Source: Gemmatimonadota bacterium (GTDB lineage: Bacteria; Latescibacterota; UBA2968; UBA8231). From it: DNA of 14,671 nt. This document shows, piece by piece, positions 633 to 11,424 of the stretch. Under the pieces are notes generated by a model, which was not told the origin of the DNA, made no database searches, and saw only the letters and a program-made list of their open reading frames with translations. A program made the translations under genes and the position numbers. Within the stretch, counting starts at the first letter, position 1; every line of letters begins with the position of its first letter. The stretch is taken from contig PATE01000054.1 of NCBI GenBank assembly GCA_002712305.1, positions 12,083-26,753 of the forward strand, read 5' to 3'.

Positions 633-695
633 AATAGGGCACGTGATGCTCCGAGCGTGTCCGAGAGAAGATTCAGGGGACAGGAGAGAAGCCAC

Positions 696-1073
696 GTGGA
701 ATTCGACCCGACCCGACCGATCTACCTGCAGATCATGGAGGAGGTCAAGAAACGAGCCGTTCGAGGCGACTACAGCGTGGGTGAGCAATTGCCTTCCGTA
801 CGCGACATGGCCTCGCAGATGGGCGTGAATCCCAATACGATGTCCCGCGCCTACCAGGAACTTGAGCGTGAAGGGTTTCTACATACCCGCAGAGGTGAGG
901 GTTCCTTCCTCACGCACGAAACCGAGCGGGTCGAGCAGGAGCGTACGGCGTTGGCACAGGCGGCATGCACCGCGTTTATCGCACAACTGCGCGATCTGGC
1001 GTTCGATGCAGCTAGGACAAGCCGTCTCTTGAGACAAGTCGAGGAGGAGGTGAACGAAGATGGCGACCGTTGA
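696..1073 (+). CDS. GntR-family (YtrA subfamily) transcriptional regulator
   Basis: This is a 125-residue DNA-binding protein. The N-terminal winged helix-turn-helix covers about residues 1-72: the start PTRPIYLQIMEEV, then LPSVRDMASQMGVNPNTMSR, then the wing around GFLHTRRGEGSF. Only about 45 residues follow. This short helical tail is typical of the YtrA subfamily, which regulates adjacent ABC transporter genes, often in response to cell-envelope stress. I chose the GTG at 696 because AGGAGA lies about 8 nt upstream and because family members begin just before the PIYxQI motif. A GTG at 657 in the same frame would add 13 residues but lacks a comparable site. The 3' end overlaps the ATPase gene by 14 nt, so the two are co-transcribed, and self-repression of the operon is expected. 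Confidence 0.9.
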   Translation: MEFDPTRPIYLQIMEEVKKRAVRGDYSVGEQLPSVRDMASQMGVNPNTMSRAYQELEREGFLHTRRGEGSFLTHETERVEQERTALAQAACTAFIAQLRDLAFDAARTSRLLRQVEEEVNEDGDR

Positions 1074-1755
1074 GATCATCGATCTGGTGAAACGCTACCG
1101 CAGCACCCAGGCCCTGCGGGGGATCGATCTGAGATTCGAACCCGGGCGTGTCAGCGGTGTCCTTGGGGAGAATGGGAGCGGCAAAAGCACGCTCTTTCGT
1201 ATTCTGGCGGGTGTGACACGACCCACGCGGGGATCGGTCCTGATCGACGGAGAGAATGTGGGCGTGGAGACGCGGCGTATGAGCGCCTACCTGCCGGAGA
1301 TCGATTCATTCTACACCTGGATGTCGATCGAGGAGCAACTGAAATTCATCGGCAGTTTCCATCCCGGCTGGAACGCGGCCAAGGCACGCGAACTGACCCA
1401 CTTCATGGGGTTGGATTCCTCGGCCCGGATCGGGGAACTGTCGAAGGGCCAGAGGGCGCGACTGAAGTTCATCGTAGCCTTTTCCTGGCCCAGTCGCCTG
1501 GTATTGATGGACGAACCCCTCGGCGGGATCGATCCGCCCTCGCGAACACGAATCCTACGAGCGATGATGCAGGAGTTCCGAGCCGAAGAGCAGACGATTC
1601 TCATCTCCACCCATCTGGTCAACGAGATCGAGGAGTTCGTCGATGATGTCGTGTTTCTGCACGATGGAGAGATCGCCCTGCAAGGCAACGCCGACGCCCT
1701 GCGAAATGATCGTGGGGCATCCCTTTCACAGATGTTCGAGGAGGTGCTGTCGTGA
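1060..1755 (+). CDS. ABC transporter ATP-binding protein (YtrB/BcrA-like)
   Basis: This 231-residue nucleotide-binding subunit powers the permease encoded next to it. It has Walker A GENGSGKST at residues 36-44, a signature LSKGQ at 127-131 (a variant of LSGGQ), Walker B LVLMDEP with Asp151 and Glu152, a D-loop in LGGIDPPSR, and the switch His185 in STHLV. The Q-loop position reads YLPEID, with Glu where Gln is usual; this is common in BcrA/YtrB-type ATPases. A strong ribosome site (GGAGGAGG) precedes the ATG. The gene overlaps the regulator upstream by 14 nt and the permease downstream by 4 nt (GTGA). By family, this is an exporter or envelope-remodelling ABC-2 ATPase; the substrate is unknown. 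Confidence 0.93.
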   Translation: MATVEIIDLVKRYRSTQALRGIDLRFEPGRVSGVLGENGSGKSTLFRILAGVTRPTRGSVLIDGENVGVETRRMSAYLPEIDSFYTWMSIEEQLKFIGSFHPGWNAAKARELTHFMGLDSSARIGELSKGQRARLKFIVAFSWPSRLVLMDEPLGGIDPPSRTRILRAMMQEFRAEEQTILISTHLVNEIEEFVDDVVFLHDGEIALQGNADALRNDRGASLSQMFEEVLS

Positions 1756-2513
1756 ACGATTTCATCACCCTCTACATGAAAGAGCTTCGCGCTCAGCGAA
1801 TGGTCATCGGTGTACTGCTGTTAGGGACGCTCGGTCTGTCCATCTACGCGCTCACCGGTCTCGGTGATGTACCCCAGCCACGCCTTGCCCTCATCATCCT
1901 CCCATACGCCAGCGCGCTTGGGCTGCCTTTTCTGCTCATCCACGCGATTTCGAGTGAGTGGTCGGCGCAGACGCACTACCAGATTCTGGCTTTGCCCGTG
2001 CCTCGATGGCTCGTACTGCTGTCGAAGGTGGCGGTCGTGTTGAGTCTCGGTGTCGTCATCTACCTGTGCAGCACCGTCTTTCTACAGGTCATCGCAGACC
2101 GAATGACGGCGATGATGCTGGCTCAGGATGGTTCGGGGGACAGTTTTCGCATTGAGCCTCACATGGACGGTTCCACCGTATGGGCTGTGTCGGGCATCGT
2201 ATACGGCGTGCTGCTGCTGCCGCTGCTGGGCATCGCCTGCGCTGCCTCTGGTGTGCGCGTGATGGCGCAGCGGTTCAAGGGATTGTCCACGCTCGGCGTC
2301 TTTGTCGCCGGCGCGTATCTCTACGGAAAGCTCCAGATCCCCATCGTCCACGCCCTGGAGAAAATCTTCGGCAAATGGGAGCTCGATCTGCCCATCCATC
2401 ACGGTACCGCGACGGCGTCGGATGTGCACCTGCTGCTGATGTACTCGGTGTTGTTTGCCGCCCTCGGGGTCGGTGTGGGCGCCGTGCTCTTCGAGAAGTA
2501 CGTGGAAGCTTGA
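1752..2513 (+). CDS. ABC-2 type transporter permease
   Basis: This 253-residue integral membrane protein starts with GTG inside the ATPase stop (GTGA overlap), so translation is coupled. About six hydrophobic segments are visible: residues about 17-36 (VIGVLLLGTLGLSIYAL), 44-65, 86-112 (LVLLSKVAVVLSLGVVIYL), 143-167 (WAVSGIVYGVLLLPLLGIA), 178-194 and 226-248. The polar loop of about 30 residues between segments 3 and 4 is probably extracytoplasmic. The early MKELRAQR stretch resembles the amphipathic elbow helix of ABC-2 permeases. It is the last gene of the unit and converges on the kinase gene, only 17 nt away; I see no clear hairpin terminator in that gap. The transported substrate cannot be told. 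Confidence 0.88.
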   Translation: MNDFITLYMKELRAQRMVIGVLLLGTLGLSIYALTGLGDVPQPRLALIILPYASALGLPFLLIHAISSEWSAQTHYQILALPVPRWLVLLSKVAVVLSLGVVIYLCSTVFLQVIADRMTAMMLAQDGSGDSFRIEPHMDGSTVWAVSGIVYGVLLLPLLGIACAASGVRVMAQRFKGLSTLGVFVAGAYLYGKLQIPIVHALEKIFGKWELDLPIHHGTATASDVHLLLMYSVLFAALGVGVGAVLFEKYVEA

Positions 2514-2530: not shown

Positions 2531-3982
2531 CTAGGACTCGGCGGGCGGGTCCTGGTGGCACTGCCTGCCGAACAGGTCCCATGCATCGGCAACGGTATCC
2601 GCTCGGCCCGCCGCACGCAGGGCGAGCGCTCGCAATCCCAGCAGTGACTCGTCGAGATCTGCCGCCGGCGTCGTCGAATAAGACGTCAGCTCAGCGAGTA
2701 TCTGCTGCAGTTGTGGCAGTTGACGTGCGATTCCTCCGGACAGAATGAGGCGGCGCAACTGTGTCTGGGGATCGAGTTCGGCCAGCACATCCACGTATTG
2801 CTGCACAAAGGCCCCAAGAACCCCAGCCAGATACGACTGCACAGTGAGGCTGCCCTCGGTGATGCCTGCGATGCTGCCACCGTTTCTCCAGCCACGGGCG
2901 CCTTCGAAAACCGACAGATCCATCTGCAGGTGTGCCTGGCTGATCTGCTGGGGTGTCACCGAACCAAGAGCCTGCCAGAAGTCACCTGTGGTGCCGGCAA
3001 AATGGGCGATGTCTTCGAGGAATCCGATGAACTCGTTCAGCGCCCGGCCGGCGGGGATGTGGGTCACCGCTGTGAGCATCCGACCCTCGAAATAAGGGCG
3101 GCGCTCAAAAGCTTGGCTTACCGGGCCGTCGATGATGCTGACCTGGGATCCGGTTCCGAGATTCAGATTGGCATCGAGTATGGGAAACGGCCCCGCGCCC
3201 AGGACCGAACACTGGTGATCGCCTACACCCGCATAGATCGGCACCAGACCCTGTGGACCCGGCCAGTGCCCGGAAATGGTCGCTTCCGTACAGGGCGTCC
3301 CGAGCTGAATCTGGCACCCGCCGATCACCCGGATGCACTCGAGCAGGGGATCGGACGGGATCGAGCCAGACTCCACATCGGCCATGGCCATGGCTGCCAG
3401 CATCGTGGGATGTTCGACCAGATCAGCGCCTGCGAATCCGTCGTGGCTCAGTCGTGCCAGTGCCAGGGGGAGAGAAAGGGCCCACGCCTCCTCGACCGAG
3501 ACCTCTCCTGTACGGCATGTGTGGGCGATGTTCAGCAGGGGGAAGCCCGGCCGTGGCCGCATGCCTGTCAGGGATCGAAAGAGATCTCCCAGTCGCTCGA
3601 TGACCAGATCGTGGGTGGAATCTCCGTCGATCCGCTCCAAGGAGCGCGCATCCAACCACGAGACATAGTTGGTCTGCGGTGTACCGTCGGGGCCGACCAG
3701 CACAAAGCCGTGCATCTCGCTGCACAGTACGATGCCGTCGAATTCGTGGGTCTGCCATGCAGCGTGACAGATGGCGTCGAATCGTCTGAGAAGCTCATCC
3801 AGCGACAACTCATGACGTCCCGAAACGTCGTGTGCAGCTGTGACAGTTTGGGTCTTCGTCGGGGCAGGCGCGGATTGGGGTGTACGGCGGTCGACACCGA
3901 CGAAGGTGCCGCACTCGAGGTCGATGAGGGCAGACTTGGTACTGGTCGTGCCAAAGTCAATGGCGAGAAAATGGCTGCTCAC
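2531..3982 (-). CDS. FGGY-family carbohydrate kinase (sedoheptulokinase-like)
   Basis: This 483-residue sugar kinase should transfer the gamma-phosphate of ATP to a sugar hydroxyl in the cytoplasm. The N-terminal phosphate-binding motif is DFGTTSTK (residues 9-16). The CSEMHGFVL region corresponds to the GQMHG motif of sedoheptulokinase and xylulokinase. YAGVGDHQCSVLGA carries the likely catalytic base Asp255, and LNLGTGSQVS and LILSGGIARQ follow as the phosphate-2 and adenosine loops. The length fits the FGGY family (about 450-520). The ATG overlaps the stop of the beta-helix gene by 4 nt, so it is the last gene of the six-gene minus-strand operon. My subfamily guess rests on motif spacing; xylulose, ribulose or another ketose could equally be the substrate. 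Long frames on the opposite strand are shadows. Confidence 0.87.
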   Translation of the reverse strand: MSSHFLAIDFGTTSTKSALIDLECGTFVGVDRRTPQSAPAPTKTQTVTAAHDVSGRHELSLDELLRRFDAICHAAWQTHEFDGIVLCSEMHGFVLVGPDGTPQTNYVSWLDARSLERIDGDSTHDLVIERLGDLFRSLTGMRPRPGFPLLNIAHTCRTGEVSVEEAWALSLPLALARLSHDGFAGADLVEHPTMLAAMAMADVESGSIPSDPLLECIRVIGGCQIQLGTPCTEATISGHWPGPQGLVPIYAGVGDHQCSVLGAGPFPILDANLNLGTGSQVSIIDGPVSQAFERRPYFEGRMLTAVTHIPAGRALNEFIGFLEDIAHFAGTTGDFWQALGSVTPQQISQAHLQMDLSVFEGARGWRNGGSIAGITEGSLTVQSYLAGVLGAFVQQYVDVLAELDPQTQLRRLILSGGIARQLPQLQQILAELTSYSTTPAADLDESLLGLRALALRAAGRADTVADAWDLFGRQCHQDPPAES

Positions 3983-5220
3983 GACGCGGTCAGGTCGACG
4001 ACGTCCTGTTCCAGATCGGAGAAACGATTCCCCGCCAGCTGGGTACCACGGGACTGTTCGCTGATGCGGACGCCGATCTGCTGCCGTGCCTGGCCACTGG
4101 CGCCATCAAAATGGCAATCGTGGATCGTCGTGTCGTGGGTCGAACCGCGGATGTCGATGCCAACGCCGTCTTCGGCGAAGCCATTGTCCGAAAAGGAGCA
4201 GCCCTCGATCACATTGCGGTGACCACCGCGGTAGACGTGGGACGGTTCGCGAAACCGCAGACCCGTCTTGTGGTTGCCGGAGAATCGGGCGCCTTGTATC
4301 CGATTGTCAGTGTCCCGATGACCGATGGAGATCCCATAGTCCGTGTTGTCACAGAATTGCCCGCCTTCTACAAGGCCATCGGTGACACCCCAGCAGAAGA
4401 AGATGCCCTGGCCATTCCCGTCTCCGATACACTCGCTGAAGACGGGTCGCTGAGATCCCGAGCCCGGGTGGAATCCGAGATTCGAGTTGTCCAGTGCCTG
4501 ACACGACTCAAAGCGGACATCATCACAGATCTGAAAGCTGAAGCCATCGCCGTGATAACTGCGTGAAGTGACCTTGCGGAAGAGGTATCGATGGCATTGC
4601 TGGAGGAAAACGCCGCCAGAGTAGTTGCCGTTGATCTCTTCATTGGCGTCGCGGTGACCGTCCAGGACCAGGTGTTCTACCGTGACATCACAGACCCCTT
4701 CCTCGGCAGTGAGAACGGGAAAGAGGGTAGATGCGGTCGCTTGGTCTTCACACCAGAAGTTTTTCTCCGGCCGGCGGCTGAGGTAGACCTCCTTTCCCTC
4801 CACGCCCACGACGGTGTCGCGTACGACCTCCCGCAGACTACCGGAGTCGGTGTAGGAACGCAGCATGATTCCACAACCGGGCGCAAAACCGGAAGAGTCT
4901 TCAACGGTCACCCGATTCTCATACCAATCGGACTCGCGGGTGATCGTCGAGGTGTGACTCGGCAACTTGTGCAGAACCGTATCACTGCCGGCGCCGCGAA
5001 CCGTGATCCCCGTTCGCAGATACAGTGCGTTGGCCATCTCGTAGTCGCCGGGCAGGATCTGCAACGTTCCCGGACCACCCAGACGGGCCAGGTAATCGAT
5101 TCCCGCCTGCAAGGCCCGGTCATCACATCCCTCCAGATCGCCACCGCGACCGACGGTCAGGGTCAGGCCCTGCGGCAGCGAGCGGGTCCGATTGTCGGTA
5201 TCTGGTGATAGATGGCTCAT
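3979..5220 (-). CDS. Right-handed parallel beta-helix repeat protein (pectin-lyase fold)
   Basis: This protein has 413 residues from the ATG at 5220. The N-terminal part reads as an entry strand and cap (LQILPGDYEMANALYLRTGITVRGAG), as in pectate-lyase-fold proteins. Successive beta-helix turns of about 22-25 residues follow, such as VTVEHLVLDG, HRYLFRKVTSRSYHGDGFSF, VRFESCQALDNSNLGFH, LVEGGQFCDNTDYGISIG and VIEGCSFSDNGFAEDGVGIDI, to the C-terminus. The fold occurs in polysaccharide lyases, glycosidases, C5-epimerases and scaffold proteins; I cannot assign a catalytic site. No signal peptide is visible, which is odd for a polysaccharide lyase. An in-frame ATG at 5289 would add 23 residues but would overlap the ABC gene by 26 nt. 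Neither start has a good ribosome site. The 3' end overlaps the kinase start by 4 nt. Confidence 0.85.
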   Translation of the reverse strand: MSHLSPDTDNRTRSLPQGLTLTVGRGGDLEGCDDRALQAGIDYLARLGGPGTLQILPGDYEMANALYLRTGITVRGAGSDTVLHKLPSHTSTITRESDWYENRVTVEDSSGFAPGCGIMLRSYTDSGSLREVVRDTVVGVEGKEVYLSRRPEKNFWCEDQATASTLFPVLTAEEGVCDVTVEHLVLDGHRDANEEINGNYSGGVFLQQCHRYLFRKVTSRSYHGDGFSFQICDDVRFESCQALDNSNLGFHPGSGSQRPVFSECIGDGNGQGIFFCWGVTDGLVEGGQFCDNTDYGISIGHRDTDNRIQGARFSGNHKTGLRFREPSHVYRGGHRNVIEGCSFSDNGFAEDGVGIDIRGSTHDTTIHDCHFDGASGQARQQIGVRISEQSRGTQLAGNRFSDLEQDVVDLTAS

Positions 5221-5263
5221 GGCGCGATGAAGGTGGGATGCCCCTTGTGCCGGCGCAAGCTCG

Positions 5264-7036
5264 TCAGCCGGCGGCGTTGGCCTCTGCATCGCCGGGTGCG
5301 ACCCATACGTCAGCGAGAAGCTGCTGGGCCTCGATCATCTTGTGGTAGGCTCCGCCAGCGGCCAGGAGATCTTCGTGCCGGCCCCGTTCGACGATACGGC
5401 CCTGATCGAGGACGATAATGCAGTCCGCATGGCGGACCGTAGACAGACGGTGGGCGATGACGAGGGTTGTTCGCTGACGCATCAGACGCCGCAAGGCTTC
5501 CTGGATCAGCAGTTCGGTGTGTGTATCCACCGCAGAGGTCGCCTCGTCGAGAATCAGGACGGGCGCATCCTTCAACAAGGCTCGGGCGATGGCCAGTCGC
5601 TGCTTCTGGCCGCCGGACAGGCGAACCCCTCGCTCGCCGATGAGGGTGTCGTAGCCTTCGTCCAGTCCGTCGATGAACTCACTGGCATTGGCCGCTTCGG
5701 CAGCGGCACGTATCTGAGTGTCATCGGCATCAGGCCGTCCGAAGCGGATGTTGTCGGCAATGGTCCCGTGGAAGAGAAAGACATCCTGCTCGACGGCCGC
5801 CATCTGACTGCGCAACCAGGACACAGGGACCTGGCGCACATCCTCGGCGCCGAGGTGAATCGACCCGTGTTGGGGGTCGTCATAGCGGGGCAGCAGGTGA
5901 GAGATCGTCGTTTTGCCTGCTCCGGTATGACCGACGAGTGCGACGATCTGCCCCTCTGGCACCTCAAAGCTGATCTCGTGGAGGACGGGCTTGTCGACAT
6001 CGTATCCAAAGGTGACCGAATCGAATTGAATACTGTAGCGGGGTGCCGTTGGGACCTGCGCATCAGGCGCATCGACGATATCTGACTCGATGGCCAGCAA
6101 CTGAAAGACCCGATCCGTACTGACCGAAGCCTTCTGCAGCACATCGTTGATCGACGCCAGTGTGAGGAAGGGTTGATAGATGTGGGCCATGTAGACGATG
6201 AAGACGAACAAGTCTGCCACACCGATACGTTCGGCCATAGCGGCACTGCCACCGGCCCAGATCACCAACACGATGCCGATTCCGCCCGCTGCTTCCACCA
6301 GACCTGCTGGCATGAGGGAGACGGAGTTGGCCTCGATGGAGGCGTCTCGAAATGCGGCCGATCGCGAGGTGACACGCCGTGTGGCGGCGTCCTCCTGCAC
6401 AAAAGACTTGATCACACGAATGCCGGCGAACTGGTCATGTACGACGGCAACCAACTCTGACAGTCGCGAGCGAACGTCCCGCCACATCTGGCGAACTCGT
6501 CGGACGAAACGGTATACGAGAAAACCCGCAATCGGAATCGGAAGCAGTGTGATCAATGTCAGCTGAGGATCGATGCTGAGCAGAACACCGATCATCGCCG
6601 TGGGAATCACGAAAGCGAGGATCGTCTCGGGGACACCGTGGGCGATGAAGTCTTCCACCGCTTCGATGTCGTTGACAGACCTGGAGATCAGACTTCCCGT
6701 CCGTTCGCGGGCGAAGAACCGATGCGGCAGCCCCTGCACGTGGCGGTAGACTCTCACCATCAGATCGTCCATCACTCGATAAGCGGCGGCATGGGAAAAA
6801 CGACCGTATCCATATCGGGTGAGTCCGCGGAACAGATACACGCCCAACAGGGCCGCTGTCAGCTGTAGCAGTTCGATGGACGATCCTCCACCTTCGGTGA
6901 TCCAGAGGATCAGCTCACGGATCAACAACGGTGGAAGAAGATTGGCTCCGGCAAACACGAGACCGCACATCACAGACAGGCCCAGGAGCCGGCGACAATC
7001 GCCCAGAAGATGCCAGAACTGGCGCAGGAAACCCAT
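5264..7036 (-). CDS. ABC exporter, fused transmembrane and ATPase domains (MsbA-like half-transporter)
   Basis: This 590-residue type IV ABC exporter half is expected to work as a homodimer in the inner membrane. The first ~310 residues are the six-helix transmembrane domain (for example LLGLSVMCGLVFAGANLLPPL near the start). The ATPase follows: Walker A GHTGAGKTT with Lys375, Q-loop EQDVFLF, signature LSGGQ at 473-477, Walker B VLILDEATS with Glu498, and His529 in VIAHRLSTV. All catalytic residues are intact. I chose the ATG at 7036 because it lies 5 nt after the deacetylase stop; an in-frame ATG at 7147 would run 106 nt into that gene. Its place inside the sugar-enzyme operon suggests it exports a lipid-linked or glycan product, but MsbA-like sequences do not reveal substrates. 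Confidence 0.93.
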   Translation of the reverse strand: MGFLRQFWHLLGDCRRLLGLSVMCGLVFAGANLLPPLLIRELILWITEGGGSSIELLQLTAALLGVYLFRGLTRYGYGRFSHAAAYRVMDDLMVRVYRHVQGLPHRFFARERTGSLISRSVNDIEAVEDFIAHGVPETILAFVIPTAMIGVLLSIDPQLTLITLLPIPIAGFLVYRFVRRVRQMWRDVRSRLSELVAVVHDQFAGIRVIKSFVQEDAATRRVTSRSAAFRDASIEANSVSLMPAGLVEAAGGIGIVLVIWAGGSAAMAERIGVADLFVFIVYMAHIYQPFLTLASINDVLQKASVSTDRVFQLLAIESDIVDAPDAQVPTAPRYSIQFDSVTFGYDVDKPVLHEISFEVPEGQIVALVGHTGAGKTTISHLLPRYDDPQHGSIHLGAEDVRQVPVSWLRSQMAAVEQDVFLFHGTIADNIRFGRPDADDTQIRAAAEAANASEFIDGLDEGYDTLIGERGVRLSGGQKQRLAIARALLKDAPVLILDEATSAVDTHTELLIQEALRRLMRQRTTLVIAHRLSTVRHADCIIVLDQGRIVERGRHEDLLAAGGAYHKMIEAQQLLADVWVAPGDAEANAAG

Positions 7037-7041
7037 TGCTC

Positions 7042-8529
7042 TTACCCGTAATGCAGCAGAGCCGGCTTCAGGGTCCATGCCTGAAGCCGAGCCAACTCGA
7101 TCAGACCCGGTGCATCGAAGTCTTTGGCAAAGACGACCCAGTTCCATACATCATCGTGCACATGTCGTTCGCTATCGAGATGTCCTGTCCGAAGTGGAAT
7201 CGTGCTGGGCAGCGTGACCTGTCGACTGCGTTGGGCGGCTGCCATCTTGCGCAACAGATCTGCAGCGGTGATGAGAAAGTCCGCTGGTGCGATGGCCTCG
7301 GAGCCCAACCAGATTGCGTCGGGCATTCGTCCATGATGCTGGAGGTATCGATCCACATCGATCGCGGCCTCCAGCAGCTGGTCGCTCGCCAGGGGCGCAT
7401 CAGGCTGGAGTGTCGTTGCCTGACGGTGCACCGGTCCCAGCGGCGTGTCCTGGCCGACAACGACGCGTATCTGAGTCAGGTCCAGTGCCGTGTCAGCGCT
7501 ATTCTCCGTCTCCTCATCGGTGATGGTGAGCATGATCTGCAGCAGCGCCTCGACGACGAGGGCGAAGATTTCAGAGGGGGCCAGCACCGTATCCGCATCG
7601 ACAAACCGGTGTTCGATGGCACCCGACGAGAACGTGAGCATGTCGGCTAGTTCGGCGATGCTGAACACGCGGTCGGCGGCGTTGTCCGGCAGAAGGTTGA
7701 GGAGCTGGCGGCCTGTGAGCACTTCCACACCGGGTTGGGCGACGATATGCCCCAGGTAGCGGTCGAACAGTTCGAGTCCTGCTGCCATCTGCTGGGCGCC
7801 GCGAAGCGGTGCCGGTTTCCATTGTGGTCGAGGGGGTTGTTGGCCGCGGGCGAAGTTGACCCCATCCCAGAAAGCGAGAGTGGCAAACTCGCATGGGTGA
7901 TAGTAGATGCTGATTAATCCGCCGCCGTCATCCACAACATCGCGATGGATCTCGTCGAATCGGCCGATGCCCTGTCGGAGTCCCTTTTCGCCTGCTTCAA
8001 AGTCCATACGCGTGACCCGCGTCTCCAAGCGATTGATATGGGGGACGTTGCAGTACCAGAAAGGGGCCCCATCGAGGCCGATGTGGGAGGCCTCGTCCAT
8101 GAAGAGGGGAATCCCCGCATCTCGCATGAACGGGTAGATCTGAGGGGCCCAGGAGCCACCCGCCTGGCCGAAGGTGGAGGAAGGGCCCAGGATTCGTACC
8201 GTGTCTTCGTACCCCGGTCGCTCGCGCCGGATGATCTCCTCGACGCCGTCCTCCCACCCGGCCGAGCGCAGATACTCTGCCAGGACGGGATGCTGCGAGT
8301 GAGTATCGGTGTGATAACCGATGTCCTGGCGCTGTAGAGCGCGGATGACATCCTCTCGTCCGCGTTCTTCCAGTACGCGCGCTTTTTCGGCGACGACCTT
8401 CCACGTTCCTTGCACGCCCTGGCGCTCGAAGCAGTCGAGCAGGCCAAGCAGCGCGTCGTCGCTCTCCGGGGTCAGGTAGTCTTCGACATCGAACCAGAAC
8501 AGAACATGAACCGGGGGCACTTCACTCAC
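7042..8529 (-). CDS. Polysaccharide deacetylase (NodB-like) with extra C-terminal domain
   Basis: This 495-residue protein begins directly with a NodB-type catalytic domain and shows no signal peptide, so it is probably cytoplasmic. Motif 1 is WFDVEDY (Asp14 and Asp17), of the DVEDY form also found in exopolysaccharide-linked deacetylases. Motif 2 is HTDTHSQHP with His73 and His77 as metal ligands. ISIYYHPCEF (about residue 210) is the later His-bearing strand. The fold fits zinc-dependent N- or O-deacetylases of sugars. Residues about 290-495 form a second region with two segments (EHRFVDADTVLAPSEIFALV and DRYLQHHGRMPDAIWLG) that resemble pseudomurein-binding repeats: a short strand, a Pro turn, then a helix. 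I hold this second assignment loosely. The ATG overlaps the aldolase stop by 4 nt, and the exporter starts 5 nt after it ends. Confidence 0.85.
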   Translation of the reverse strand: MSEVPPVHVLFWFDVEDYLTPESDDALLGLLDCFERQGVQGTWKVVAEKARVLEERGREDVIRALQRQDIGYHTDTHSQHPVLAEYLRSAGWEDGVEEIIRRERPGYEDTVRILGPSSTFGQAGGSWAPQIYPFMRDAGIPLFMDEASHIGLDGAPFWYCNVPHINRLETRVTRMDFEAGEKGLRQGIGRFDEIHRDVVDDGGGLISIYYHPCEFATLAFWDGVNFARGQQPPRPQWKPAPLRGAQQMAAGLELFDRYLGHIVAQPGVEVLTGRQLLNLLPDNAADRVFSIAELADMLTFSSGAIEHRFVDADTVLAPSEIFALVVEALLQIMLTITDEETENSADTALDLTQIRVVVGQDTPLGPVHRQATTLQPDAPLASDQLLEAAIDVDRYLQHHGRMPDAIWLGSEAIAPADFLITAADLLRKMAAAQRSRQVTLPSTIPLRTGHLDSERHVHDDVWNWVVFAKDFDAPGLIELARLQAWTLKPALLHYG

Positions 8530-9425
8530 GCGACCTCGAATTCCAGGGCCTCTATGTCGGCCCGCAGTTGCTTGTCAGCGGCTGAACTCAAGGGCTCCAC
8601 CAGTCGAGGTGGGCCCACCGGTGTCCCACGCCAGCCGAGTATGGCTTTGACGCTGGCCAGCACGCCGTGCTCGATCAGAATCCGAATCACCTGATTGGCC
8701 TGCCGCTGGCACTGCCTGGCTTCGTCTAACTGTCCCGCGTCAAATGCGGCCCGCATCTGCAGATAGAGCTTGGGCATGATGTTGTACGTGGTACCGATCG
8801 CGGCCTCGGCACCCATGACCATCGCGGGCAGAGCCATCTCGTCGGGACCACTGATCGCATTGATCGAACCCTTCGAGCGATCGATGAGCTGGCCGAACAG
8901 GTAGAGATTGTGATCGGTGAACTTGATACCTGTGAAATTCGGTACCTGCTGCATCGCCTCGAGAAAGCCGTCAGCCGTGACGCGGCGGTCCGCTTCTCCC
9001 ATCAGCCAGTAGACGTAAAAAGGCAGGTTGCTGGCGCCGCCGATGGCTGCGTAATGCTCGATGGCAGCGTCCAGGTCATTGGGGCGATCTGCAGGCGCCA
9101 CCGAGGCCACGGCATCGATCCCCTGTACGTGGGCCGCATGCTGCGCCAGTTCGATGGCATCTTCCGTCGTCGTGCCTCCCACCTGCAGAATGAGGGGGAC
9201 GGCGCCCGCCACTTCATCGGCCAGCAATTCAGCCATGTTCATCCGTTCCGGAACACTCATGACACGGCCTTCACCTGTGCCACCACAGACGAAGAATCCC
9301 TGTGCCCCCGCATCGAGTAGAGAGCGTACCAGAACACGGACACGTTCGACATCTACCCCTTCGGCGCTGTCGTCGAAAGCCGTGCAGAGAGCGGGCCAGA
9401 TTCCATGAGCAATCTTCGTCGTCAT
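8526..9425 (-). CDS. DHDPS/N-acetylneuraminate lyase family aldolase
   Basis: This 299-residue class I aldolase makes or cleaves a 2-keto acid through a Schiff base. Lys168 in GIKFTDHNLY is the imine-forming lysine and Tyr139 in FYVYWL the catalytic tyrosine. The carboxylate-binding loop is CGGTGE at residues 47-52. AIGTTYNIMP and GIKFTxxxLY are closer to N-acetylneuraminate lyase (AIGSTYNI) than to lysine-pathway DapA, so I favour a sialic-acid-type or keto-deoxy-sugar substrate. The loop has Gly49 where NanA has Ser47 (GGSTGE), which may change substrate binding. I chose the ATG at 9425 because GGTGGAGAG lies just upstream and an earlier in-frame ATG at 9467 would overlap the previous gene. 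It lies 19 nt after that gene and overlaps the deacetylase by 4 nt. Confidence 0.9.
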   Translation of the reverse strand: MTTKIAHGIWPALCTAFDDSAEGVDVERVRVLVRSLLDAGAQGFFVCGGTGEGRVMSVPERMNMAELLADEVAGAVPLILQVGGTTTEDAIELAQHAAHVQGIDAVASVAPADRPNDLDAAIEHYAAIGGASNLPFYVYWLMGEADRRVTADGFLEAMQQVPNFTGIKFTDHNLYLFGQLIDRSKGSINAISGPDEMALPAMVMGAEAAIGTTYNIMPKLYLQMRAAFDAGQLDEARQCQRQANQVIRILIEHGVLASVKAILGWRGTPVGPPRLVEPLSSAADKQLRADIEALEFEVA

Positions 9426-9444
9426 CGTATCTGTCTCTCCACCA

Positions 9445-10203
9445 CTAGAATTTCGTGTCGCCGTCAATGGCTGGGAATGCCAGGGGAGATCGATTGCCGA
9501 CGAATGGGGGCCGCAAAAGGTCTCGTTGGGTGTCGTCGGTGGCCGACTCGAGATACTTGTCGTTGTTCGACGGCGACGACCAGCTGGAATACCCTGGCGA
9601 GTATTTGTAGAGCAGGGAGCGCCGTCGCTGTTGCGACGTCCAACAGCGCGTGCCGTGAACGAGGGCCTCTGTGAAGATCAGCATGTCACCGGCCTGCAGC
9701 GTCGGATTGACCACCAGATGGGAGTGTACGTCGGGTTTGTAGGTGTCGAACGACGCTTTGTGCGACCCTGGAACCAGCACAAAACCACCATCGCCGGGAT
9801 TCACATCCTCCAGGGCATACATCACGACGATCAGACCATTCCACATCTTCCCATTTGCCCACTGATACTGATGTTCGCCCTGGTCGGCGCGCAGACCACC
9901 ATGCAGATTCTCCCGTGTCTGCTGGTCCGTCGTCATCTGAATTCCATAGGCATGGTCGTGACGTAACCAGTCGCCGATGATCGTGCGCATGGCCGCCAGG
10001 GTTCGCGGATGGGCCATGAGTCGCATGAAGACGGGGTCGAGTTCGACAAAGCTGAAACGACTCGGATTCTCTCCGGCGAGGTGGTCGTCGATGAGTGTAT
10101 TCATTGCTGTCAGATCGTCGCTACCTATGAGGTTCCGATAGACGATGTATCCATTGAGATCGAATTCGTAGATTTCGGCTTCGGTCACGCGCGTCTCCGC
10201 CAT
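9445..10203 (-). CDS. Phytanoyl-CoA dioxygenase (PhyH) family protein with HxG in place of HxD
   Basis: This 252-residue protein has the double-stranded beta-helix fold of non-haem Fe(II)/2-oxoglutarate enzymes. The family hallmark MYALEDVNPGDGGFVLVPGSHK (about residues 129-150, shown here only as landmarks) is present. The distal iron ligand His183 sits in ALVHGTRCW and an Arg-rich segment follows (QQRRRSLLY), as expected for 2-oxoglutarate binding. The proximal motif, normally HxD, reads NLHGG: His101 with Gly103 where the carboxylate ligand should be. It is the first gene of the six-gene operon. The ATG at 10203 has no clear ribosome site. A TTG at 10230 in frame would add nine residues, and the GTG six codons into the gene is another option. 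The substrate is unknown; the context suggests a sugar-derived molecule. Confidence 0.87.
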   Translation of the reverse strand: MAETRVTEAEIYEFDLNGYIVYRNLIGSDDLTAMNTLIDDHLAGENPSRFSFVELDPVFMRLMAHPRTLAAMRTIIGDWLRHDHAYGIQMTTDQQTRENLHGGLRADQGEHQYQWANGKMWNGLIVVMYALEDVNPGDGGFVLVPGSHKASFDTYKPDVHSHLVVNPTLQAGDMLIFTEALVHGTRCWTSQQRRRSLLYKYSPGYSSWSSPSNNDKYLESATDDTQRDLLRPPFVGNRSPLAFPAIDGDTKF

Positions 10204-10218
10204 GCAGCAGGTGTTTAT

Positions 10219-10244
10219 CAGGTCGCGCAAAGCAACGGGACCTG
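10219..10244. promoter_or_regulatory. Inverted repeat in the divergent promoter region
   Basis: CAGGTC (10219-10224) and GACCTG (10239-10244) form a perfect 6-bp inverted repeat with a 14-bp spacer. It lies in the 93-bp gap between the divergent PhyH-like and M24 peptidase genes. The centre-to-centre distance is about two helical turns, as for a dimeric regulator. No regulator gene is next to it. Such short arms can occur by chance, and the repeat would fall partly inside the coding region if the TTG at 10230 were the true start. Confidence 0.22.
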
Positions 10245-10296
10245 CGAAGTTTCGTCAACGAGATCGACACTCCGGACCCACGACAAGAAACGTCTG

Positions 10297-11424
10297 ATGC
10301 CACCATCCTTCCCATCACGGCGGCAACGACTGGCCGCAGCTGCCGCCATGCGAGGTGCCGAGATCTTTGTCGCCACGCAGCGGCCAAACCAGCTGTATCT
10401 GCTGGCTGGAGCTCAGCATGAGGATCCGAGTTGTGTGATCAGCCGAGGCACCTGCGCGGCCATCCTCTTCCACCACCGTGGGGGTGAAGTGGCCGAGACG
10501 GTGGTGTTCCCCGGGATCTGGATCAGCAATGCGTGCCGCGACCTGTTGCACGACTGTGAGGTCGTGGAGAACGGCCTCTCCGATCCGACAGCCGAGGAGC
10601 AACTGGCGCATCGATTGGCCTCGATGGCCCCGCGGCGTGTGTTGTTTGATCAACTGTCTGATTCTCTGGGACAAAGCATCGCCAAGGTGGCACCGTCGAT
10701 CGAACTGGTGGTCGACGACTTTGTCACGACTCTGCTACGACGCTGCAAGGACGAGGCCGATCTGGTTGGCTTGAAGCGGGCGGCTCAGGTGGCCGATCTG
10801 GGTATGCAGACGGCTTTTGCGAACGTGCGCCCCGGTGTGTCATGTGCCGACGCGATTGCCGTGGGCACGGCAGCCATGCTCGCCGCTGGCGCCGAGAGTG
10901 TCGCCATGGCACCAGCCTCAGGCATTGGTACGGGATACCTCGACAGCGGTGAAGACCCTCGGCGGCGGATCGAGGAAGGAGACATGGTCTTCATCGATAT
11001 GGGGATCTGGGTTCATGGCTATCTCGGCGACATGACGCGAGCGGCCATTGTCGGTACCGGGTCGGCGGAACAACAGGACCTTCTTGCCACGGTTCAGGAG
11101 GCCTATCAACGGTCAAGCTCGCTGATGGTGCCCGGAGCCCGTGGGGAGGAGATCTATCAGACCGTGGTCGATTTGTATGCGCCGAAGGGATGGGCACCCT
11201 ACTTCGTTCACCATCTGAGCCATGGGCTGGGTCTGGGGGGCGACGTGCCGCGTGTGGCGGCAGATCATGCCGAGATCCTGCACGTGGGCGACGCGCTCTC
11301 CTGCGAGCCCGGGTGTTACATCCCGGGACTGGGGGGTGCCCGTGTGGAGAATATGATCTATGTCGGCGACAGTGGACCGGTTGAACTGACAAAGACCCCC
11401 ATAGATCCGGAGCTCGCCTCGTGA
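10297..11424 (+). CDS. M24-family metallopeptidase (Xaa-Pro aminopeptidase-like)
   Basis: This 375-residue protein has an N-terminal creatinase-like domain (about residues 1-145; start RRQRLAAAAAMRGAEIFVAT) and a C-terminal pita-bread domain. All five metal ligands of active M24 enzymes are present: Asp234 (VFIDMG), Asp245 (GDMTR), His309 (LSHGLGL), Glu337 (CEPG) and Glu351 (RVENM). It should therefore bind two metal ions and cleave the N-terminal residue before proline, or act as a related creatinase-type hydrolase. I chose the ATG at 10297 because the creatinase domain begins right there; the open frame upstream lies over the PhyH gene on the other strand. The ribosome site is weak. The stop overlaps the acyltransferase start by 4 nt, coupling the two genes. 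Confidence 0.9.
   Translation: MPPSFPSRRQRLAAAAAMRGAEIFVATQRPNQLYLLAGAQHEDPSCVISRGTCAAILFHHRGGEVAETVVFPGIWISNACRDLLHDCEVVENGLSDPTAEEQLAHRLASMAPRRVLFDQLSDSLGQSIAKVAPSIELVVDDFVTTLLRRCKDEADLVGLKRAAQVADLGMQTAFANVRPGVSCADAIAVGTAAMLAAGAESVAMAPASGIGTGYLDSGEDPRRRIEEGDMVFIDMGIWVHGYLGDMTRAAIVGTGSAEQQDLLATVQEAYQRSSSLMVPGARGEEIYQTVVDLYAPKGWAPYFVHHLSHGLGLGGDVPRVAADHAEILHVGDALSCEPGCYIPGLGGARVENMIYVGDSGPVELTKTPIDPELAS

Follow-up and report, generated by a model that had tools for sequence, protein, structure and literature searches.

Six genes in a compact minus-strand block

The window analysed here, a stretch of 14,671 nucleotides (nt) from contig PATE01000054.1 (C75) of a 4.77-Mb draft genome assigned to Latescibacterota UBA8231, contains six consecutive genes on its minus strand. 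In the direction of reading, these genes encode a PhyH-family 2-oxoglutarate/Fe(II) dioxygenase, an N-acetylneuraminate lyase (NAL)-type class I aldolase, a NodB-like deacetylase, an MsbA-like ATP-binding cassette (ABC) exporter, a right-handed beta-helix protein and a divergent FGGY-family carbohydrate kinase. The closest public contigs are those of a metagenome-assembled genome labelled Gemmatimonadetes SI074_bin69, with a same-genus locus (L020), and of Latescibacterota UBA8231 (L021). An earlier interpretation made from the DNA letters (hereafter, the sequence-only reading) had proposed that the six genes form one operon. All six open reading frames (ORFs) are indeed present, with no internal stops.

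The genes are closely spaced. The PhyH gene ends at 9445, leaving a 19-nt gap to the ATG of the aldolase gene at 9425; the aldolase gene (end 8526) overlaps the NodB gene (GTG 8529) by 4 nt; the NodB gene (end 7042) is separated by 5 nt from the ABC gene (ATG 7036); and the beta-helix gene (end 3979) overlaps the FGGY gene (GTG 3982) by 4 nt. Between the ABC gene (end 5264) and the beta-helix gene there is either a 43-nt gap, if the latter starts at ATG 5220, or a 26-nt overlap, if it starts at ATG 5289; an alignment of 13 orthologues favours the start at 5220. These coordinates agree with every gap and overlap listed in the sequence-only reading. The tight junctions, together with a gene order that is kept in relatives (see below), support a single transcript, and the block is very likely an operon. 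We found no promoter-like sites in the operon junctions, and the terminator-like matches on the minus strand lie inside genes, in numbers near chance. The 93-bp divergent intergenic region that precedes the block (10204..10296, defined by coordinates and sequence) likely holds the promoters of both the operon and a divergently oriented M24 gene; no sigma-70-like site was found within it.

The five soluble proteins lack a strongly hydrophobic N-terminus, whereas a related genome's binding protein, used as a control, has one. This fits the earlier claim that signal peptides are absent. A cytoplasmic role for the enzymes, with sugars or keto-acids as their substrates, is likewise supported.

The gene set recurs in related genomes

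We compared the block with 64 genomes of the phylum, assigning genes by tblastn, Pfam and genome searches; the ORF caller behind the gene maps picks some shadow frames. The same gene set is found together elsewhere. In a genome of the same genus (G001), five of the six genes occur in the order aldolase, NodB, ABC, beta-helix and FGGY, with a Gfo/Idh-type oxidoreductase gene inserted between ABC and beta-helix, with the same flanking genes and without the PhyH gene. In a genome of another genus (G012), all six lie in one region in which carbohydrate ABC importer genes are interleaved. Here, the importer genes (one for a carbohydrate binding protein and two for permeases) lie between NodB and ABC along with an additional PhyH gene and a DUF3604 gene, another additional PhyH gene and a Gfo/Idh gene lie between ABC and beta-helix, and a short-chain dehydrogenase/reductase (SDR) gene is found beyond FGGY. 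The cluster genes of G009 are situated at contig ends and are compatible with the same order. Furthermore, the PhyH and aldolase genes are adjacent in all seven genomes that strongly match both (G000, G006, G007, G009, G012, G013 and G019), and the beta-helix and FGGY genes are adjacent in five (G000, G001, G005, G012 and G015). Since gene order is kept in relatives, the six-gene arrangement is more than chance. A literature search for this six-gene combination found no paper.

We consider it reasonably probable that the block represents, in compact and rearranged form, part of a cluster for carbohydrate uptake and catabolism distributed across one Latescibacterota-type family. The neighbourhood could instead be a composite that serves no single pathway: the PhyH–aldolase and beta-helix–FGGY pairs, the exporter (a core gene) and NodB (a mobile one) would have ended up side by side. 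The conserved pairs do separate in several genomes (G013, G007 and G015), close NodB orthologues occur in two genera only, and the exporter and beta-helix genes are widely found on their own. However, the junctions are tight and include 4-nt overlaps, G001, G012 and, in part, G019 bring these elements together, and the Gfo/Idh, ABC and beta-helix genes remain linked in G007 and G013, so we regard a composite as quite improbable.

Predicted activities of the encoded proteins

The aldolase (8526..9425, minus strand, 299 amino acids (aa); PF00701, E=1e-49) belongs to the dihydrodipicolinate synthase (DHDPS) superfamily. NanA models score best for this protein yet miss their cut-offs (142 of 382 bits for TIGR00683 and 174 of 281 for PRK04147), and its closest solved NAL match is 8u8w (E=2e-37). 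In an alignment with Escherichia coli NanA, the aldolase retains GGTGE, the Schiff-base Lys in GIKFTD, and GPDE, all of which are also kept in its orthologues, as well as the catalytic Tyr and the Lys-x-Thr element. The substrate loop that follows the Tyr is different, reading YWLMGEAD where NanA has YNIPALSG, and NIPxxxG is thus absent; the orthologues also carry other sequence in place of the NIPALSG loop. With the catalytic segments of NanA kept and this loop replaced, the protein is likely to perform a retro-aldol reaction on a 2-keto-3-deoxy acid, and the alignment suggests that its substrate is probably not plain sialic acid.

These features bear on a narrower form of the catabolic explanation, in which the block would degrade a nonulosonic (sialic-acid-like) acid, its deacetylase, NAL-type lyase and kinase replacing the NanA–NanE–NanK–NagA route. 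The aldolase is closest to N-acetylneuraminate lyase by both the 174-bit score and the 8u8w match, and it retains the Lys, the Thr and the GxDE segment of NanA. In addition, ROK kinase and NagA-like genes adjoin the NodB relatives of Cohnella, and the phylum is reported to degrade sialic acid (PMC4454575). This form is nevertheless unlikely in our view, with the NanA models under their cut-offs, WLMGEAD in the place of the NIPALSG loop, and no sialidase or NanE-type epimerase recognised in the clusters.

For the NodB protein (7042..8529, minus strand, 495 aa), which has an extra C-terminal region, Pfam yields no deacetylase match even at E≤1 (a relative at L022 matches PF01522 with E=0.19), so its assignment rests on motifs and predicted fold; a sequence search against solved structures gave nothing useful. 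The predicted structure (predicted local distance difference test score, pLDDT, 91) resembles polysaccharide deacetylases, with a deformed (beta/alpha) barrel of the CE4/NodB type. The top Foldseek match is 3rxz (E=9e-8; VIA Z 18.9, root-mean-square deviation (rmsd) 3.3 over 234 residues), and GH57 enzymes, which have a related barrel, match the model equally well. The residues of FDVED (D14 and D17), H73-x3-H77 and H211, which we take to be the metal triad and the catalytic acid/base, are invariant in 12 aligned sequences. Given this invariance, the motifs and the model make deacetylation likely; an amidohydrolase like PuuE is possible. In Paenibacillaceae, NodB relatives often adjoin an acyltransferase of the NAT_N/GNAT_C kind (L028:8845-10005, L030:11397-12566 and L102:7987-9159), with which they possibly form an acylation/deacylation pair.

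The beta-helix protein (3979..5220, minus strand, 413 aa; PF13229, E=2e-14) has an AlgE-epimerase-like fold and no signal peptide, and its orthologues are 55–76% identical. Its model (pLDDT 87) superimposes on the A-module of AlgE6 (5lw3) with a VIA Z of 36.6 and an rmsd of 2.1 over 298 residues, and other beta-helix enzymes follow close behind (Z 30–35). AlgE-type mannuronan C5-epimerases have the catalytic motif DPHE/DPHD. Among orthologues of the beta-helix protein a GFHPGSGSQ segment is conserved.

The FGGY protein (2531..3982, minus strand, 483 aa; PF00370, E=6e-7) finds no solved relative as a single-sequence query; solved relatives are matched only when it is searched as a profile. It passes the FGGY_N cut-off at 29.7 bits (cut-off 28.8), and the profile search matches it to gluconate, xylulose and glycerol kinases. 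The phosphate-binding FGTTSTK and the catalytic GVGDHQCSVLG are intact, with FGTTSTK and GVGDHQ invariant in seven sequences.

The PhyH protein (9445..10203, minus strand, 252 aa; PF05721, E=8e-14) passes its family model clearly, at 52.9 bits against a cut-off of 22. Its best solved relatives, 4xcb and 4xc9, are labelled ‘oxidase/hydroxylase’; 4xc9 is HygX, the hygromycin B orthoester-forming oxygenase, a sugar-modifying antibiotic enzyme. At the iron site, all close orthologues have HGG where HxD is expected and thus lack the HxD...H triad, while the distal His and the Arg are retained. In 2-oxoglutarate halogenases the carboxylate site at the iron is vacant; as far as the sequences indicate, HGG could likewise correspond to a vacant carboxylate site, or the ligand could come from elsewhere. 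Genomes of the phylum each hold dozens of PhyH candidates, and a study of Poribacteria found PhyH genes to be abundant and their function mostly unknown (PMC3909097).

In view of the HGG segment of the PhyH protein and the lost NIPxxxG of the aldolase, the chemistry could be new. More tentatively than the general catabolic explanation, we entertain the idea that the block serves a novel way of breaking down a keto-sugar acid that carries O-methyl, N-acetyl or other modifications. The HGG-type PhyH oxygenase and the intracellular AlgE-fold protein may make this compound ready for an NAL-type lyase whose specificity is new, and for the FGGY kinase.

Probable import rather than export

The exporter (5264..7036, minus strand, 590 aa; PF00664 and PF00005) scores 452 bits with the MsbA model TIGR02203, below the cut-off of 602. 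Its orthologue is present in 31 of the 64 genomes, in one copy each at the threshold used, is ~60–65% identical outside the nearest genera, and is flanked by unrelated genes in families f3 and f4. Because it is class-wide and elsewhere found in unrelated contexts, the exporter is probably a conserved envelope gene with a separate role, which is situated in the block in family f1, and thus a neighbour rather than the outlet of the pathway. We set it aside as an outlet, as its orthologues in sister families occupy unrelated contexts.

The sequence-only reading had favoured biosynthesis: the operon would produce or alter an unusual sugar, acidic or deoxy, for export by the MsbA-type ABC protein. 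The exporter does lie in the middle of the operon, 5 nt after NodB, and stays close to cluster genes in G001, G012, G007, G013 and G019; furthermore, the nearest solved relative of the PhyH protein, 4xc9 (HygX), is an antibiotic enzyme acting on a sugar. However, a carbohydrate importer lies within the cluster of relatives, and no nucleotide-sugar or glycosyltransferase gene was recognised in the orthologous clusters, in which not every gene could be assigned. Sialic-acid-type biosynthesis was set aside, since NeuB was not found in the host genome (91% complete). With the exporter also widely conserved in unrelated contexts, synthesis and export of a sugar is very unlikely, and it is the other possibility named in that reading, a catabolic pathway, that fits best.

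In six genomes from two genera (G004, G008, G009, G011, G012 and G014), no more than 4 kb separate the gene for the importer's binding protein from a PhyH or NodB orthologue; in genus g4, the importer is located between PhyH and FGGY in four genomes. In G000, G001 and G019, the binding protein is on another contig. The importer operon of the host is intact (C9:20485-23590) and consists of a binding protein and two permeases that are 76–83% identical to those of G012 (76% for the binding protein). Outside the phylum, NodB relatives are mostly encoded close to sugar importers or glycosidases: those of Cohnella and Paenibacillus beside importers together with genes for a xylose-isomerase-like protein, Gfo/Idh, NagA-like proteins and ROK kinases, and those of Anaerolineae beside an importer or a GH42 beta-galactosidase. 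Genomes of the phylum were described, in a single-cell study, as broadly equipped to degrade algal polysaccharides, uronic acids and sialic acid (PMC4454575).

We also observed a second host locus on contig C9 (L106/L107), where the importer operon is accompanied by a PhyH gene and by paralogues of NodB (divergent, ~26% identical) and of the beta-helix gene. On C95 of G001, the NodB and beta-helix paralogues occur together without the importer, and at L109:7639-10290 of the same-genus genome the importer operon is preceded by a gene that, judged by eye, resembles a GH38 alpha-mannosidase.

For the uptake-and-catabolism explanation, we infer the substrate, the order of steps and the exact reactions as follows. 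The ABC importer, encoded on another contig in the host, would bring in a modified sugar or short oligosaccharide, which is probably N-acetylated or uronate-type. The NodB protein would then take off acetyl groups in the cytoplasm, the beta-helix protein would act on a uronate-like unit by isomerisation or cleavage, and hydroxylation or oxidative demethylation would fall to the PhyH enzyme, joined in relatives by the Gfo/Idh enzyme. Finally, cleavage of a 2-keto-3-deoxy acid by the NAL-type lyase would yield pyruvate and an aldehyde sugar, and the FGGY kinase would channel the product into central metabolism by phosphorylating it.

Several observations weigh against this explanation. Only genera g1 and g5 contain close NodB orthologues, and the NodB reaction thus does not belong to the core of the pathway. 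Across the class, the beta-helix gene is found without the other cluster genes, the exporter is inside the cluster in three f1 genera, and none of the enzymes has a characterised close relative. As the importer is absent from both the window and the same-genus cluster, its link to the six genes is indirect. Finally, Paenibacillaceae carry 88 to at least 150 sugar-importer permeases per 7-Mb genome, so a sugar importer is not rarely expected near a gene at random, and the proximity of NodB and importer genes in this family is suggestive only.

Neighbouring genes

The M24 metallopeptidase-type protein (10297..11424, plus strand; PF00557, E=7e-39) is encoded divergently to the operon. Its gene is also the divergent neighbour of the PhyH–aldolase pair in G006, G007 and G019, and of the aldolase gene in G001; its place next to the pair is conserved in three genera, and it is possibly an extension of the conserved block or a member of the pathway. 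On the other side, genes for a GntR regulator, an ABC ATPase and a permease (657-2513, plus strand) converge on the operon. This unit is kept at the equivalent place in G001 and, in part, in G012 and G015, and is probably separate from the operon.

Significance and comparison with known systems

For one PhyH type, the conserved block provides a concrete, assayable context through its ties to lyase, kinase and importer genes. It further suggests that marine or lake organic matter contains a sugar acid not yet characterised, and a NodB subfamily without a Pfam model gains a likely part in taking up and degrading sugars. The interest is modest unless the chemistry of the PhyH protein or the lyase turns out to be new.

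HygX (4xc9) is the nearest solved relative of the PhyH protein and also has an HGG segment at its iron site. However, the similarity is low (E=5e-15), and the PhyH gene of the window has no antibiotic biosynthetic context. The amino-sugar-type importer operons of Cohnella and Paenibacillus (L026, L028 and L096) contain members of the same NodB subfamily, 34–38% identical to that of the window, beside sugar ABC importers, Gfo/Idh genes and kinases, but no NAL-type aldolase, PhyH, FGGY or beta-helix gene was recognised near NodB in them.

Alginate and uronate clusters comprise a lyase or epimerase, an SDR-type reductase for 4-deoxy-L-erythro-5-hexoseulose uronate, a 2-keto-3-deoxygluconate kinase, a 2-keto-3-deoxy-6-phosphogluconate aldolase and an importer. 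They resemble the present system in the AlgE-type fold of the beta-helix protein, in the SDR gene beside FGGY in G012 and G005, and in an aldolase for what is likely a 2-keto-3-deoxy acid. In contrast, the beta-helix protein of the block has no signal peptide, its aldolase is NAL/DHDPS-type and its kinase is FGGY rather than PfkB, and the NodB and PhyH proteins have no counterpart in those clusters. Compared with the nan operon (NanA, NanK, NagA and an importer), the cluster has an FGGY instead of a ROK kinase and a NodB-type instead of a NagA deacetylase, adds the PhyH and beta-helix proteins, has an altered substrate loop in its lyase, and lacks a recognised NanE. Nevertheless, in both systems an NAL-type lyase is encoded together with a deacetylase and a sugar kinase, joined by an importer in relatives of the window, and the step expected at the centre of each is the retro-aldol release of pyruvate.

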